Assembly (NCBI GenBank): GCA_002721875.1 | Contig: PBLU01000003.1 | Location: forward strand, 71,155 to 98,764 | Direction: 5' to 3' | Source: Chloroflexota bacterium | GTDB lineage: Bacteria > Chloroflexota > Dehalococcoidia > UBA1151 > TMED-70 | DNA length: 27,610 nucleotides | In this document: one piece after another, positions 426 through 25,648 of the stretch | Layout: each line of letters opens with the position of its first letter | Numbering within the stretch: position 1 is the first letter of the stretch | The notes under the pieces: model-generated | Told to the model about the DNA's origin: nothing | Seen by the model: the letters and a program-made list of their open reading frames with translations, nothing else | Database searches by the model: none | Position numbers and translations under genes: made by a program

Positions 426-501
426 TGGCGCCCCTGAGATCACTCGAACATCCGGCACCCGGTTTAGGAAACCGGTGCTCTATCATCTGAGCTACAGGGG
501 C
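426..501 (-). tRNA. tRNA-Arg (anticodon CCT), probably degenerate copy
   Basis: The reverse strand folds as a tRNA with acceptor GCCCCTG/CAGGGGC (7 bp, perfect), D stem GCTC/GAGC, anticodon stem CCGGT/ACCGG with loop TTCCTAA (anticodon CCT, reading AGG), a 5-nt variable loop, and an encoded CCA at 426-428. The T loop TTCGAGT is present, but the T stem GGATG/GATCT has a G-G clash at the normally invariant 53-61 pair. The D loop AGATGATA lacks G18 of the conserved GG. The first 46 nt match the intact tRNA-Arg(CCT) at 2126-2201 with one change, while the T arm differs. It is either a decaying duplicate or an unusual functional variant. Confidence 0.75.
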
Positions 502-577
502 TTACTCTCATATTACTTAATTTTACATCAACAAAACCCCGACTTACCTAAGAAAAGTATGGGGATTAGCGTGGGGA

Positions 578-820
578 TTGATAAATGAAAACGGTAAAAA
601 TCTAGCAGAAAAGTTTACGAATGATCTAAGTATAAACTCTCTTTCAAAGCAGCTTGGAAATATTAAGATTCAAAGTTTACATGAAGATTTTTCTGGATAT
701 AGCATAGAGCTAGAATTTAATAGGTCTATATTTCCTCTAATTTCAGCTCCAAACATAGCCATTAATAAGAATCATTGGGATGCTCTAAATAAAATAGCCA
801 AATTTTGCATAGAGAGTTAA
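578..820 (+). CDS. hypothetical protein
   Basis: An 80-residue soluble protein of unknown family. The proposed TTG start directly follows GTGGGGA, which is too close for a normal Shine-Dalgarno. The frame stays open upstream to a TAA at 518-520, so the N-terminus is uncertain or the ORF may be the tail of a damaged gene. No membrane segment or recognisable motif is seen; the C-terminal half (NKNHWDALNKIAKF) looks helical. It sits alone between two copies of tRNA-Arg(CCT), next to the zinc alcohol dehydrogenase. Being an orphan small ORF beside a tRNA is compatible with accessory DNA, but there is no integrase to support that. Confidence 0.4.
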   Translation: MINENGKNLAEKFTNDLSINSLSKQLGNIKIQSLHEDFSGYSIELEFNRSIFPLISAPNIAINKNHWDALNKIAKFCIES

Positions 821-904
821 ATTTTTTTGTTTAAACCTAATTTCTAAACTGTCATTTATAGGTAATGAATGATAAAAAAACTAAATTTTATAGGATTTTA
901 AAAA

Positions 905-2026
905 CTATGGAGTTACTATTGCTCTAGTAACTTCACTTCCAGACTGTGTGCCTATCCATTCTGCAGTCTTAAATGCTTCATCAATTTTTTCAATAGGAAA
1001 TTCATGAGAAATGACATTTGTTAGAGGATATTTGTCCTTGGTTCTTTCTATAAAATCTATAGCATTTGGAATTATCCAGGGATCGTAGTGTTGTATCCCA
1101 TAGAATCTTATTTGGTTAGATACTAATCCTGTAACATCAATAGATGCAAAAGAATTTGGAGAAATATGGCCCACTTCAAGATAAATACCCCTCATTCTCA
1201 CCATTTTTATTCCTTCCTCAACAGCTGATGGGAATCCAACAACTTCAACTACTTTATCGGCACCAATTCCACTTGTTAATTCCATAACTCGATCAATTCT
1301 AGATTCAGGAGTTGGAAATTCATTCATATCTATTGTGTGAGTTGCTCCACATTTCTTAGCTAAATCTAGCCTAGGTTTTTGGCCATCAATTACAATGATT
1401 TTTGAAGCACCTAGTTCTTTTGCTACAGCTGTTGCATTAACTCCGAGTCCCCCTGCTCCCTGAATTACAATATTATCACCAAGTCTGACTCCTCCTAGAT
1501 GCAAAGCTTCATATACTTGTGCTAATGCACAATTTATAGGAGCTGCTGCTGCATCAGAAATTGTATCGGGTAGTTTAAATACGTACTGAGGACTTCTTAG
1601 GTAATAATACTGAGCAAAACCTCCATTACAATATGGGAATTCATCTAGAGGTTTTCTTCCCATCCTAAACTTACAGGCTCCAAATTCACCTCTTATGCAG
1701 TTGTAACATTTTGTACAAGGGAAGAAATATGAGTAAGCAACCCTATCTCCTTCTTTAAGAGGGTTTCTTAGAGAATCAGTTTTAATTTTTTTACCTAAAG
1801 AAGCAACTACACCCATCATTTCGTGACCAAATACCATTGGATCTGGTGGAGGAGCATTTTTGTCTAGTCCGTCCCCTCTCCATACATGCAGATCAGATCC
1901 ACATACACTTGTTGCTTTGACTCTTATTTGGATAGCATCATTTTCTAGTTTTGGAAGAGGAAGTTCTCTAAGTTCCCAACTTTTATCTGATGAATGCCAT
2001 ACTGCAGAAATACCTGTTTTACTCAT
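905..2026 (-). CDS. zinc-dependent alcohol dehydrogenase (MDR superfamily)
   Basis: A 373-residue medium-chain dehydrogenase oxidising an alcohol or polyol with NAD(P). The N-terminal GroES-like domain has catalytic zinc ligand C42 (VCGSDLH) and H68-E69 (FGHEMMG). Structural zinc ligands are C104, C107, C110 and C118. The Rossmann domain begins at GAGGLG near residue 190 and is followed by an acidic residue (VID), suggesting NAD preference. The ATG at 2026 is chosen over an upstream in-frame ATG at 2047 because an exact AGGAGG lies 6 nt before it. The gene lies between the two tRNA-Arg genes, upstream of no obvious partner. Length and motifs are normal for the threonine/sorbitol dehydrogenase branch; the substrate cannot be assigned. 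Confidence 0.9.
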   Translation of the reverse strand: MSKTGISAVWHSSDKSWELRELPLPKLENDAIQIRVKATSVCGSDLHVWRGDGLDKNAPPPDPMVFGHEMMGVVASLGKKIKTDSLRNPLKEGDRVAYSYFFPCTKCYNCIRGEFGACKFRMGRKPLDEFPYCNGGFAQYYYLRSPQYVFKLPDTISDAAAAPINCALAQVYEALHLGGVRLGDNIVIQGAGGLGVNATAVAKELGASKIIVIDGQKPRLDLAKKCGATHTIDMNEFPTPESRIDRVMELTSGIGADKVVEVVGFPSAVEEGIKMVRMRGIYLEVGHISPNSFASIDVTGLVSNQIRFYGIQHYDPWIIPNAIDFIERTKDKYPLTNVISHEFPIEKIDEAFKTAEWIGTQSGSEVTRAIVTP

Positions 2027-2032
2027 AATTTT

Positions 2033-2038
2033 CCTCCT
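2033..2038 (-). promoter_or_regulatory. strong Shine-Dalgarno of the zinc alcohol dehydrogenase
   Basis: The reverse strand reads AGGAGG, 6 nt before ATG at 2026. It decides the start against the upstream in-frame ATG at 2047, and is one of the few full-consensus ribosome binding sites in this window. Confidence 0.8.
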
Positions 2039-2125
2039 AAATAACACTTGTAATAAATTTATAATTTATTTATTTTTTTTAAGTTTATTATAATTTACTA
2101 TTTTATTTTTTGACAAAGAAAATTA

Positions 2126-2201
2126 TGGTACCCCTGCCGCGACTCGAACGCGGGACACCCGGTTTAGGAAACCGGTGCTCTATCCTCTGAGCTACAGGGG
2201 C
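2126..2201 (-). tRNA. tRNA-Arg (anticodon CCT)
   Basis: A complete cloverleaf on the reverse strand: acceptor GCCCCTG/CAGGGGT (one G-U at 1-72), D stem GCTC/GAGC with loop AGAGGATA retaining the conserved GG, anticodon stem CCGGT/ACCGG with loop TTCCTAA (anticodon CCT), T stem CCGCG/CGCGG with loop TTCGAGT, discriminator A and encoded CCA at 2126-2128. It reads the AGG arginine codon. It is probably the functional one of the two copies here. A long hairpin abuts its 5' end (2201-2252). Confidence 0.95.
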
Positions 2202-6523: not shown

Positions 6524-7880
6524 ATGAATCAAGAATTAATCTATAAAAATAATATAAAAAGTTTAATGTCACTAACAAACTTTGAATATAACAAATTAAA
6601 AAGAAGAGACCCAGGTTTTCACCTAGATAGGGTTAACTATATGATGAAAAAATTTGATTATCCTAATAAAAATAAGGACTTTATTCATATTGCTGGATCA
6701 AAAGGCAAAGGATCTACATCTAATCTAGTTTCATATGGTTTATCAAATAAAAAAATTGGTTTATTTACTTCACCTCATATGCATAAATTAACAGAGAGGA
6801 TAAAAATAAATAACAAATCAATATCAGAAAAATTATTTAATTTTTACTTTAAGAAGGTCTGGAAAATTGTTGAAATAATGGAAAAAGAAATAGACCAAAA
6901 ACCAACTTTCTTTGAATTTATGACTCTTCTTGCATTAGTAATCTTTAGAGATGAAAAAGTAGATATATCTGTAATAGAAGTAGGTTTAGGAGGAAGATTA
7001 GATTCGACAAATGTAATTGATTCTAATCTTTCAGTTATAACTCAAATTAGTAAAGATCATACTAATATATTAGGAGATACATTGATTAAGATATCTAATG
7101 AAAAAGGAGGAATAATTAAGTCTAAAACTCCACTAATCATTTCGAAACAACTAGAAAGAGTAGAAAAAAATTTAGAAAATATTGCTAAAAGAAAAAACTC
7201 AGAAATATATCATTCTTCAGATATAAAAATTATTACTAAATTAGTAAATATTAATGATAATTTTTTACAAAATATTTTATTGAAAAACAAATATAAATTT
7301 AATCTAAATTTGTTAGGAGACCATCAAATAGAAAATCTAAAAACAGCTCTTAAGACTATTGAAGTTTATTATCAATACAAAAAAAAAAGATAACCTTGAC
7401 TGGAATTTAGTTGGGGATAATATATCTAAGGCATTTATGACAGGAAGATGTGAAGTCATTAAGTATGGAAAGCATTTTTGGATCGCAGATGGGGCACAGA
7501 ATAACAAATCTTCAAAAGCACTGATTAGGACTATTAAGGAATTAAGATTTGATATAAATAAAATAATATGGATATATGGAGGTAGTGATGGACATAGTTC
7601 TTTCGAAACTATTAGAGCTATAAAAAAATATAGCCCCAAAATTATTCTAACTAAAAGTAGATTACCAAAAGCAAAAAGTCCATCAAGTATAGTCAAAGAG
7701 TTGAAAAATCTTAATTTAGATATAATAGAGTTAACAAGTAATACTTCTGAAGCCTTTAAGTTGGCTAAAAGTTTAGTAAATACAAAAGATTGCATTGTAG
7801 CCTTTGGTTCTTTGTATATTGCTGCTGAGTTCGTAGAACTATTAAAAAATATTAAACCTGAAAAATATACATATGAGTAA
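6524..7880 (+). pseudogene. folC: folylpolyglutamate/dihydrofolate synthase, frameshifted
   Basis: FolC adds glutamate to folates in the cytoplasm. The first frame (6524-7393) has the P-loop at residues 58-65 (GSKGKGST), the Mur-ligase-like DISVIEVGLGGRLDSTN block, the KDHTNILGDT metal/nucleotide segment and GDHQIENLKTAL. It then stops within 5 codons of a 10-A run at 7379-7388. The C-terminal ligase domain continues in the +1 frame to 7880 (GRCEVI, then ADGAQNNKS, the usual DGAHN site with Gln for His). One A fewer gives an uninterrupted 451-residue protein of normal FolC length. It may be a homopolymer error, a real mutation, or rescued by slippage. It overlaps fabF by 8 bp, implying an operon. 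Confidence 0.85.
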
Positions 7881-11811: not shown

Positions 11812-12741
11812 ATGACCATCAACAGAACATTTAACAGATATAATTTTTTATTGAAATTTATTATGATTTCATTATCAATCATAGTTATTTTTATTTTCCT
11901 ACTTAATTCAAGTTTTATTTTTTTAGTAATTAATGATGATCACATAGGCTATTTGTATACTGAAGAAACAAATTTACACTTTAAAGAAGATATTGTGACT
12001 AATACACTAGAAGAAAAGAAGGAACCTGATTTGACTAATATACTAGAAGAAAAGAAGGAACCTTATTTAACTAATACTGTAGAAGAAAAGAAGGAACTTG
12101 AGTTGCCTCAAACCCTAGAAGATACAGAAATACCGGAGGTTATAGCTATTATAATGTCAAAAATTATTAGTGAAAAAAAGATTACCTCAGATGAAATCTA
12201 TTTTATTGAATTAGAAGAAAAAATATGGAACTCTAATGCATTAGGATGTCCCGTGGAAGGAATGATGTATACCCAACAGATAATTGATGGCTACAAAATT
12301 AATTTTTCAATAATGAATAGTAATAATGTAATCCATTCAGATATTCATGGAAATTATATTAATTGTTCTGAGATTGAGCTGATAAATGAAGAGTCAAATT
12401 TTAATTTCGTGAACCAATATAATCTTGAAGAGACAAGTATCATAACTTTAGAAACTGCTACCGGAAAAAATATAACTCAAATAGACGATAAGGATTATAT
12501 AGAAGAAACTATAAAAAAATTAAATCAAGATGTAATTATCTCAAATAGTAAAATTTGTTTTCATAAATATAATCTTATTTTTCAAAAAAAATCAGAGAAA
12601 ATATCTTTTGGGTTAGTTTGTGAAAATAATATTAACTATGTTTATGTTGATGAACCCATAGAATCAACAAATCTTTTTATAAAAATTATTGAACCCATTC
12701 TTGCTAATCAAGAATTCCCAGGTGTGCCAAAAAATGAATAA
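11812..12741 (+). CDS. membrane-anchored protein with EEKKE repeats and LGCP-GMMY motif domain
   Basis: A 309-residue protein of unknown function. Residues 13-42 are a hydrophobic anchor (Nin/Cout likely). Residues 66-101 are three 12-residue repeats (LEEKKEPDLTNI type), an acidic/lysine linker. The following domain (about 105-190) contains IWNSNALGCPVEGMMYTQ and YKINFSI and a later Cys (INCSE). This resembles a small conserved domain with the signature LGCP..GM.Y.Q....GY.I seen in exported proteins and lipoproteins of Chloroflexota, cyanobacteria and others. A second, unrecognised domain with two Cys (ICFHKY, LVCENN) follows. It probably acts outside the membrane. Its stop overlaps the HypE-like gene by 8 bp, indicating coupling. 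Confidence 0.65.
   Translation: MTINRTFNRYNFLLKFIMISLSIIVIFIFLLNSSFIFLVINDDHIGYLYTEETNLHFKEDIVTNTLEEKKEPDLTNILEEKKEPYLTNTVEEKKELELPQTLEDTEIPEVIAIIMSKIISEKKITSDEIYFIELEEKIWNSNALGCPVEGMMYTQQIIDGYKINFSIMNSNNVIHSDIHGNYINCSEIELINEESNFNFVNQYNLEETSIITLETATGKNITQIDDKDYIEETIKKLNQDVIISNSKICFHKYNLIFQKKSEKISFGLVCENNINYVYVDEPIESTNLFIKIIEPILANQEFPGVPKNE
12007..12114 (+). repeat. three tandem 36-bp in-frame repeats
   Basis: Units begin at 12007, 12043 and 12079; each starts CTA/GTA followed by GAAGAAAAGAAGGAA and encodes 12 residues (L/V-E-E-K-K-E-x-x-L-x-x-x). A fourth partial unit begins at 12115 (LED). The nucleotide conservation of the core implies recent expansion. The encoded stretch lies between the membrane anchor and the first globular domain, so it probably serves as a variable-length spacer. 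Confidence 0.85.
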
Positions 12742-19048: not shown

Positions 19049-19222
19049 ATGGGATTTATTCAAAATTTAGGACCATTACAACTAGTTCTTATAGTTCTAG
19101 TAATTTTAGTTCTTTTTGGTGTAGGTAAGCTTCCTCAAGTGGGTAAAGGGGTTGGTCAAGCTATCAATGAGTTTAAAGCAGCCTTAAACAAATCAAACAA
19201 AGAAGACGATAAAGAAGATTAG
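19049..19222 (+). CDS. tatA: twin-arginine translocase subunit TatA/E
   Basis: A 57-residue protein with the TatA plan: short N-terminus, one membrane helix (about 7-22, LQLVLIVLVILVLFGV), the FG hinge, amphipathic helix GKLPQVGKGVGQAINEFKAAL, and a charged tail (KSNKEDDKED). TatA forms the pore that moves folded Tat substrates across the membrane. It is too short for a default ORF cut-off but unmistakable. It faces tatC, whose stop is 10 bp away; the intervening AATTTTATAAAATT palindrome might end both transcripts weakly. Confidence 0.92.
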   Translation: MGFIQNLGPLQLVLIVLVILVLFGVGKLPQVGKGVGQAINEFKAALNKSNKEDDKED

Positions 19223-19232
19223 TTTAAGAATT

Positions 19233-20072
19233 TTATAAAATTTTGAACTTATCGAACCTCACTATTATCGCTGATAATATTAATGCAACGACTATTAGTA
19301 CTAAGAAAATAATACCTAGATAAAATCTAAAAGTTTTCTTTTCAGGCTCAGTTATTCTGATAAAAATAAGTCCGAATTCATATAGTAGAATCATAGGTAA
19401 AGCCACAGTTATTTGAGTAATAGGATCAACTGTTGGAGTTATAATTGCTCCTAGTACAAAAGCTAAAAGAATTACCCATCTTCTAAATCTCTTTAATGAT
19501 TTATGAGTGATAATTCCTAATCTTCCCAATAAAAACATTATCAAGGGAATTTGAAAAATTATTCCCATCCAAAACATTAGAGAAAACATTAAAGCAGTTA
19601 ACGGTCCAATATTTATCATAGGTTGAGCTATATCATCACCAAATGTTATAAGAAAATTAAGTGCGCTAGGAATCACAAAAAAATAACTAAAAAAAGCTCC
19701 AGAAATAAAAAAAATAAAACATAAAGGAATTAGTAAATAAATATAAAGTTTTTCCTTACCTCTCAGACCAGGTCTAAGAAAAAAAATTACTTCTCCAAGT
19801 AAAAAAGGTATTGATAAAGATATGCCTAAAATTATTGAAACTCATGCGGCAGCTCCCCATGCTTCTGTTACTCTACCAAAAACTATTTGACCATCGGCTC
19901 CTGCTCCTAAAAGTATTTTATTTGCCGGTTCTATAAATATTTGAATTATTTGTTTAAAGAAAATTAAAGAACTAACAGTAAAGATTGTTAGAAAAATAAA
20001 GTATCTTATTAATCTTTTTTTTATCTCTTTAAAATGATCTAAAATATTTACAGGCTTATCTTCAGTTAGCAA
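19233..20072 (-). pseudogene. tatC: twin-arginine translocase subunit TatC with in-frame TGA
   Basis: TatC is the polytopic receptor for Tat signal peptides. The reading frame from TTG at 20072 encodes the N-terminus (ILDHFKEIKKRL, the usual hLxELRxRl, with a helix after it) to TEAWGAAA, where TGA occurs at 19842-19844. The same frame then continues without any gap: VSIILGISLSIPF, LRPGLRGKEK (typical APGLy.kEr), FFSYFFVIPSALNFL, and the C-terminal helices to 19233. The total of 279 codons is normal for TatC. So a single substitution interrupts an otherwise full gene. An error, a true nonsense mutation or readthrough are all possible. It starts 1 nt after the tatB stop, with AGGA inside the end of tatB. 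Confidence 0.88.
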
Positions 20073-20073
20073 A

Positions 20074-20355
20074 TTATTCTTTTCCTATATCTTTTTTTAT
20101 CTCACCAACTGATTTTGAAGTTTTTTCAGATAAGTTATTTAAGCTTTCCTTAAGATTTTGGAGTTCTTCAATATCATCATCTAAATCAATCGTTTGCTCA
20201 ACCGCAGAAATAAGTTCATCTCTTTGTTTCTTAAATTCTGAATAAACTAATCTAGTTTTTCTTATAAATACTAATAAATTTGCAGGCCCTACAATAAATA
20301 AAGCAATGATCATAATCATCACTAATTCAAATCCACCTATTCCAAAAATATTCAT
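20074..20355 (-). CDS. tatB: Tat translocase TatB-like protein
   Basis: A 93-residue TatA/B-family protein: MNIFGIGGFELVMIMIIALFIVGPANLLVFIRK, i.e. a short N-terminus, a single helix and the GP hinge typical of TatB, then a long charged amphipathic region with coiled-coil character to the end (EELQNLKESLNNLSEK). The GP rather than FG hinge and longer tail favour TatB over TatA; a dedicated TatA is at 19049. It is placed between maf (1 bp gap) and tatC, so the order is rlmD-maf-tatB-tatC in one operon. Confidence 0.8.
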   Translation of the reverse strand: MNIFGIGGFELVMIMIIALFIVGPANLLVFIRKTRLVYSEFKKQRDELISAVEQTIDLDDDIEELQNLKESLNNLSEKTSKSVGEIKKDIGKE

Positions 20356-23991: not shown

Positions 23992-25648
23992 ACAAAAAAA
24001 TATATTAGTTTGTGTTGCTTGGCCTTATGTAAATGGTCCACCTCATCTTGGGCATATAGCAGGGATGAGTATTCCTGCAGATATTTTTGCAAGATACAAC
24101 AGATTAATTGGTAATAATGTGGCTATGGTTTCAGGTTCTGATATGCATGGAACACCTGTAACGCTTTTAGCAAATGATTTAGGAGTTTCACCTGAAGAAA
24201 TCTCTTCAAAATATCATGACATATGGTCTAGAAGCTTAAGAGATATGAATTTTCAGTATGATTTATATACAAATACACATACAGATAATCACATGGAAAT
24301 TGTAAAGAATATATTTTCTGATTTGTTAGCTAAAGAATTACTAGAAATTAGAGAGCAGCTAATGCCTTATTCAATTACTGAAAATATATTCTTAAGCGAT
24401 AGGTTAGTTGAAGGAGAATGCCCAGCAGGAGATAATGAAAGGGCTCGGGGAGATCAATGTGAAGTTTGTGGAAGGACTTTAGACCCTACTGATCTAAAGA
24501 ATATTAGATCAAAAAGAGATGGCTCTATACCAGAATTTAGAAAAACATCTCATTATTTTTTGAAACTAAGTGAGATGGAGTCAAAAATAAAAGAATGGAT
24601 TGATTCAAAAGAAGAGTGGAGACATAACGTAAAAAACCAAAGCCTTTCATTCATAAAAGAAGGTTTGAAAGATAGAGCAATAACTAGAGATCTTTCATGG
24701 GGAATAGATATACCTGTAAAAGGATGGGATAAAAAGAAAATATATGTTTGGTTTGAGGCTGTTTTAGGATACTTGACTGCTACAGTTGAACTATTTAGTA
24801 AAACTGATAACCCTGAAGAATGGAAGGAATTTTGGGAAAATGAAGAATCAGAATCATATTATTTTCAAGGCAAGGACAATATCCCTTTTCATACTATAAT
24901 TTTGCCCGCAATTTTACTTGGTATAGGAGGGAAAAATTTACCAACAGATGTAGTTGCAAATGAGTACCTGAATTTTTCTGGGAGAGAATTTTCTAAGAGT
25001 AGTAACTGGGCAGTTTGGTTGCCAGATTTTCTAGAAAAATACTCCTCTGATTCATTAAGATATTATCTAACTTCAATAATGCCTGAAACTTCTGACTCCG
25101 ATTTTACATGGGAAGGATATGTAGCTTCAAATAATAATGAACTTGTTGCGACTCTTGGAAACTTTATACATAGAGTATTAACAATGTCTCATAGAAATTT
25201 TGATGGAGAAGTTCCATATTTTGATACAAACTCATCAGAAACAAAAGAAATAATTGAAAAGTCAGAAAAAGCCTTAGAAGAAGTCGGTGAATCAATTTCA
25301 AAAAGAAAATTTAGAGAAAGCCTAAATAAATTAATGAATCTAGCTAGATTTGGGAATCAATATTTAGACAAAAATGAGCCTTGGAAAAAAATAAAGCAAG
25401 ATAAAAAATCTGCAGGTGAAGTTTTAGGTCAATCAATGATTATAATAAGCGCTATAAGCTCCATGCTTGAACCTTTTCTTCCAAACTCAGCCGAAAGACT
25501 TCAAAAAGTAATATTTAATGAGAAAAAAAATAATTGGAACTTAATACTTCCAATTTCAGGAGATAAGTTTGATAAACCAACTCCATTATTCGAAAAATTA
25601 GAGGAAGAAAAAGTGCTACAAGAAAATGGGATGATGTTAGATGAGTAG
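23981..25648 (+). CDS. metG: methionyl-tRNA synthetase
   Basis: A 555-residue class I synthetase charging tRNA-Met. HIGH motif: PPHLGHIAG (20-28). KMSKS motif: FSKSS (337-341). The SGSDMHGTP segment and the helical anticodon-binding domain (about 365-540) are intact; no C-terminal tRNA-binding extension is present. The zinc-knuckle insertion retains C147, C160 and C163 (RARGDQCEVCG), but the fourth expected Cys is Gly150 (CPAG in place of CP.C), so the site may be weakened. The ARGDQC.-type insert resembles archaeal-like MetRS forms. It overlaps both rsmI (11 bp) and the polyprenyl synthase (8 bp). Confidence 0.95.
   Translation: MVNKQKNILVCVAWPYVNGPPHLGHIAGMSIPADIFARYNRLIGNNVAMVSGSDMHGTPVTLLANDLGVSPEEISSKYHDIWSRSLRDMNFQYDLYTNTHTDNHMEIVKNIFSDLLAKELLEIREQLMPYSITENIFLSDRLVEGECPAGDNERARGDQCEVCGRTLDPTDLKNIRSKRDGSIPEFRKTSHYFLKLSEMESKIKEWIDSKEEWRHNVKNQSLSFIKEGLKDRAITRDLSWGIDIPVKGWDKKKIYVWFEAVLGYLTATVELFSKTDNPEEWKEFWENEESESYYFQGKDNIPFHTIILPAILLGIGGKNLPTDVVANEYLNFSGREFSKSSNWAVWLPDFLEKYSSDSLRYYLTSIMPETSDSDFTWEGYVASNNNELVATLGNFIHRVLTMSHRNFDGEVPYFDTNSSETKEIIEKSEKALEEVGESISKRKFRESLNKLMNLARFGNQYLDKNEPWKKIKQDKKSAGEVLGQSMIIISAISSMLEPFLPNSAERLQKVIFNEKKNNWNLILPISGDKFDKPTPLFEKLEEEKVLQENGMMLDE

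Follow-up and report, generated by a model that had tools for sequence, protein, structure and literature searches.

The window discussed here, a stretch of 27,610 nucleotides, carries on its minus strand, from 20072 to 19233, a TatC reading frame with a single interruption. In translation, this frame of 280 codons consists of 278 residues, an internal TGA, and the stop at its end. The internal TGA is codon 77 (19842–19844, read on the minus strand as 19844–19842) and directly follows the residues TEAWGAAA. The part before it (19845–20072, minus strand) has 76 codons beginning with a TTG start, and the part after it (19233–19841, minus strand) is open up to a TAA. Both parts match the TatC profiles, with PF00902 (profile length 208) aligned at positions 1–55 before the stop and 62–208 after it, and TIGR00945 at positions 1–44 and 63–215, respectively. 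Membership in these families is judged by coverage of the profile over its length in a single frame, which the window gene provides; the uninterrupted frame of a TatC gene is lacking in the window copy and present in that of the nearest genome compared (G001). Directly upstream of tatC lies a tatB-like gene (20074–20355, minus strand) that shows neither gap nor internal stop relative to G001 and scores below the TIGR01410 cut-off (42.5 of 56.5 bits), and convergent with tatC is a TatA-like ORF of 57 amino acids (19049–19222, plus strand), named TatA by eye from its sequence. Both are open, as a first-pass annotation had stated in describing tatA and tatB as intact.

The G001 genome, which is 97% complete, has 53% of sampled 31-letter words in common with the window and aligns with it in a single 25.5-kb block at 97.8% identity. 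The TatC proteins of SAR202 cluster bacterium OSU_BB06 and Chloroflexi bacterium TMED70 are in turn 97% identical to that of G001, so that the source of the window is, judging from these sequence similarities, an uncultured marine SAR202-type Chloroflexota bacterium. The single TatC of G001 scores 163.8 bits against TIGR00945, above the cut-off of 132.7 bits, and matches seven distinct solved TatC sequences. Alignment of the window tatC with its G001 counterpart extends over 840 bases with no gaps and 12 mismatches, and past the stop 201 of 202 residues are identical to those of G001 TatC, a correspondence by which the continuity of the frame cannot be ascribed to chance. The 12 codons that differ include eight synonymous and four nonsynonymous changes, the stop among the latter, and six of the seven differing codons that lie after the stop are synonymous. 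In the 80 bases around codon 77, the base that creates the stop is the sole difference between the two sequences. The earlier description of a full-length TatC with a single TGA, after which homology resumes with no indel, is thereby borne out, both by the ungapped alignment and by the profile matches before and after the stop.

How widely the interrupted codon is conserved can be judged from the related genomes. A TatC match was found in 58 of 60 of these, at 59 places, and in 30 of the 31 that are of good quality. One genome (G007, listed at 7% contamination) has two TatC matches, of 97% and 75%, the second of which lies outside the codon 77 reading. That reading covers 30 loci (L001 to L030) of the 59 places, and the codon is AGA at 13, AAG at 12, and AAA at 5, so that arginine or lysine is specified at every one. 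The genus is represented by nine loci, each from a different genome, and all have AGA, the open gene of G001 included. The window frame matches known TatC (PF00902, TIGR00945, and the structures 4b4a, 4hts, and 9e02) on both sides of the stop, but where the chains of 4b4a and 9e02 have lysine at the aligned site, the window has a stop codon. Because arginine or lysine recurs in the related loci and lysine in these two solved chains, the site is that of a conserved basic residue, presumably located at the beginning of transmembrane helix 2. Given the uniformity of AGA in the genus and of Arg or Lys across the 30 loci, the window TGA is, from the comparison of these genes, best described as a one-base change from AGA to TGA present only in the window among the sequences examined. 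Comparison with close relatives, which the first-pass annotation had proposed, thus shows the gene intact in those examined; of the one-base origins it had considered, TGG (Trp) or AGA/CGA (Arg), the comparison points to AGA rather than TGG.

In the protein collection, clusters were judged by representatives only, and members could still carry the same stop. Searching it with the 76-residue N-terminal piece retrieved nine fragments, seven of which reach codon 77, all with arginine there. The closest full-length TatC cluster, of 97 members, shares 97% identity with G001 TatC. The representative of cluster P0120 has arginine at codon 77 and extends two residues further; this cluster may contain the window's own 76-residue piece. 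A cluster of 18 TatC tails of 150 amino acids (P0001) begins at the internal GTG that also opens the tail ORF of the window, and its representative is 97–98% identical to G002, G005, and G007, 95% to G001, and 95% to the window. The cluster could represent either other broken tatC copies or contig ends, and it is the only result that could argue for tatC stops in other strains.

A second lesion in the window affects folC (6524–7880, plus strand), which is broken by one extra A relative to G001, a run of ten A's (7379–7388, plus strand) standing in place of nine and splitting the gene into two ORFs. The folC gene was found in eight of the nine genus genomes with no stop inside it. The extra base may be a sequence error or a mutation that arose by slippage; a less likely possibility is that slippage during transcription brings the two ORFs back into one frame. 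Of the 25 window genes compared, 24 have a counterpart in G001, where every one of them is open; in the window, tatC and folC are the only broken ones. Elsewhere, an ORF of 309 amino acids (11812–12741) shows two single-base gaps eight columns apart relative to G001 and keeps its frame, and the nine genes from tatC to nth are free of internal stops in G001, G002, and G005.

We infer, at somewhat better than even odds, that the most likely explanation of the tatC TGA is a base-level error, in which the AGA codon would have become TGA during amplification, sequencing, or consensus building, while in living cells the codon would be sense and TatC full length. Local base errors are suggested by the breakage, so close together, of two core genes whose counterparts in G001 are open, and the preservation of the frame past the stop and the constancy of Arg or Lys, both at the genomic loci and in the fragments that reach the codon, point the same way. 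The substitutions, however, give no hint of an elevated error rate: across eight genes, with the mosaic metG excluded, private codon changes number 13 nonsynonymous (stop included) to 22 synonymous in the window and 16 to 26 in G001. Runs of A such as that in folC can slip in living cells as well, and the cluster of 18 TatC tails could stand for other broken copies.

There is a substantial, though less than even, chance that the stop is a genuine and recent nonsense mutation by which a strain or cell lost TatC and hence Tat export. The remaining differences of the window resemble natural divergence, and the mosaicism at metG is natural. Within tatC itself, two changes can be placed on the window side, E56G and the stop, and neither is synonymous, compared with seven synonymous and one nonsynonymous on the G001 side and two codons that are unassignable, but these numbers are small, two changes being too few to weigh, and the pattern is as compatible with a relaxed gene as with errors. 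Such a loss would also be unusual in a group in which nearly all genomes, including those of good quality, have a TatC match; the single TatC of G001 gives no expectation of a spare copy, and the window gene shows no decay past the stop. Compared with nonsense pseudogenes and with base errors in draft sequences, the window tatC is alike in having one point change in a gene otherwise unbroken and an isolated frameshift elsewhere in the window, and no difference from these cases was found. An ordinary outcome, either sequence error or recent loss with no new decoding signal, is thus the most likely for the tatC TGA.

Alternatives in which the stop is decoded have less in their favor. The first-pass annotation had thought general reassignment unlikely, and this is upheld by TGA serving as the terminal stop of 4 of the 25 window genes, where reassignment would leave UGA unused as a stop. 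It had also raised readthrough by selenocysteine or a suppressor, for which nothing found here provides support; the checks it proposed, for another tatC, sel genes, and a suppressor tRNA, were made in relatives of the window. The open and conserved frame past the stop is what would be expected if leaky decoding or a suppressor of some unknown kind allowed some full-length TatC to be made, but relatives with AGA at the codon have no need of such a device, TGA is an ordinary stop here, and no UCA anticodon occurs among the 33 tRNA matches of G001 (all typed) or in an extra tRNA found by ARAGORN, in a list that is incomplete, the search having missed the Leu (gag) tRNA in L094 detected by ARAGORN and listing no Lys-UUU (ttt). 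Readthrough of this type is accordingly considered very unlikely. The specific variant in which a real UGA at the conserved arginine codon would yield TatC by inefficient readthrough, so that Tat export would be set by the level of readthrough, is more doubtful still.

Insertion of selenocysteine at the TGA appears the least probable of all, even though the pathway is present in the genus. Among the nine genus genomes, tRNA-Sec is over its cut-off in seven (with anticodon tca in all seven), selA in seven, and selB in five, the SelB winged-helix domain being found in the same five. The distribution of this machinery is patchy, as none of the three components is over cut-off in G001 or in G007 (87% complete), a pattern suggesting that the lineage closest to the window has lost it. 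As in known cases of UGA recoding, the window has an in-frame TGA past which homology continues, and the machinery occurs in most genus genomes; unlike in such cases, the site is one of Arg or Lys, never Cys or Sec at any of the 30 loci, the machinery was not found in G001, and no marked structure follows the codon. The 66-base stretch 3′ of the TGA folds little better than shuffled sequences (z of −0.98, with 32 of 200 shuffles folding as well) in a general folding calculation using no specific SECIS model, and the same stretch occurs in G001 after an AGA. To our knowledge, there is no precedent for selenocysteine at an arginine site.

Two routes by which the tail might be translated separately were also considered and rejected. 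At the overlapping ATGA, termination followed by reinitiation would use an ATG in another frame that, by eye, soon meets a stop, and so gives no TatC tail. Translation starting afresh at the internal GTG (19676) would yield 147 amino acids and omit the residues between the stop and the GTG. The TatC fold has six helices, so the 76-residue piece can be expected to contain no transmembrane segment beyond the first, and the ORF of 147 amino acids to miss the part around the second.

For lone in-frame TGA codons in draft environmental sequences, this case illustrates the value of looking first at close relatives and only then at recoding. A real stop would mean that Tat export has naturally been lost in a lineage where TatC is otherwise retained. 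In a different setting, a paper on bacterial fitness genes, which appears to concern Enterobacterales in blood infection, names TatC 34 times (PMC11376589).

Elsewhere in the window, in the region 426–2201 (minus strand), two copies of tRNA-Arg(CCT), alike at 63 of 76 bases, flank about 1.6 kb in which the only ORF of at least 100 amino acids is that of a zinc alcohol dehydrogenase (905–2047, minus strand). At the corresponding site, G001 has one tRNA and no insert, and a protein search for the dehydrogenase, run with no positive control, gave no match at an E value of 1e-50 in the nine genus genomes; the flanked segment resembles a small island at a tRNA site or the relic of one. In metG, at about 24300–25200, the identity of the window to G001 drops to 84–92% and that to G002 is 92–97%, while G001 is 93–94% identical to G005 in this region, a mosaic that looks, from these identities, like the product of homologous recombination between lineages.
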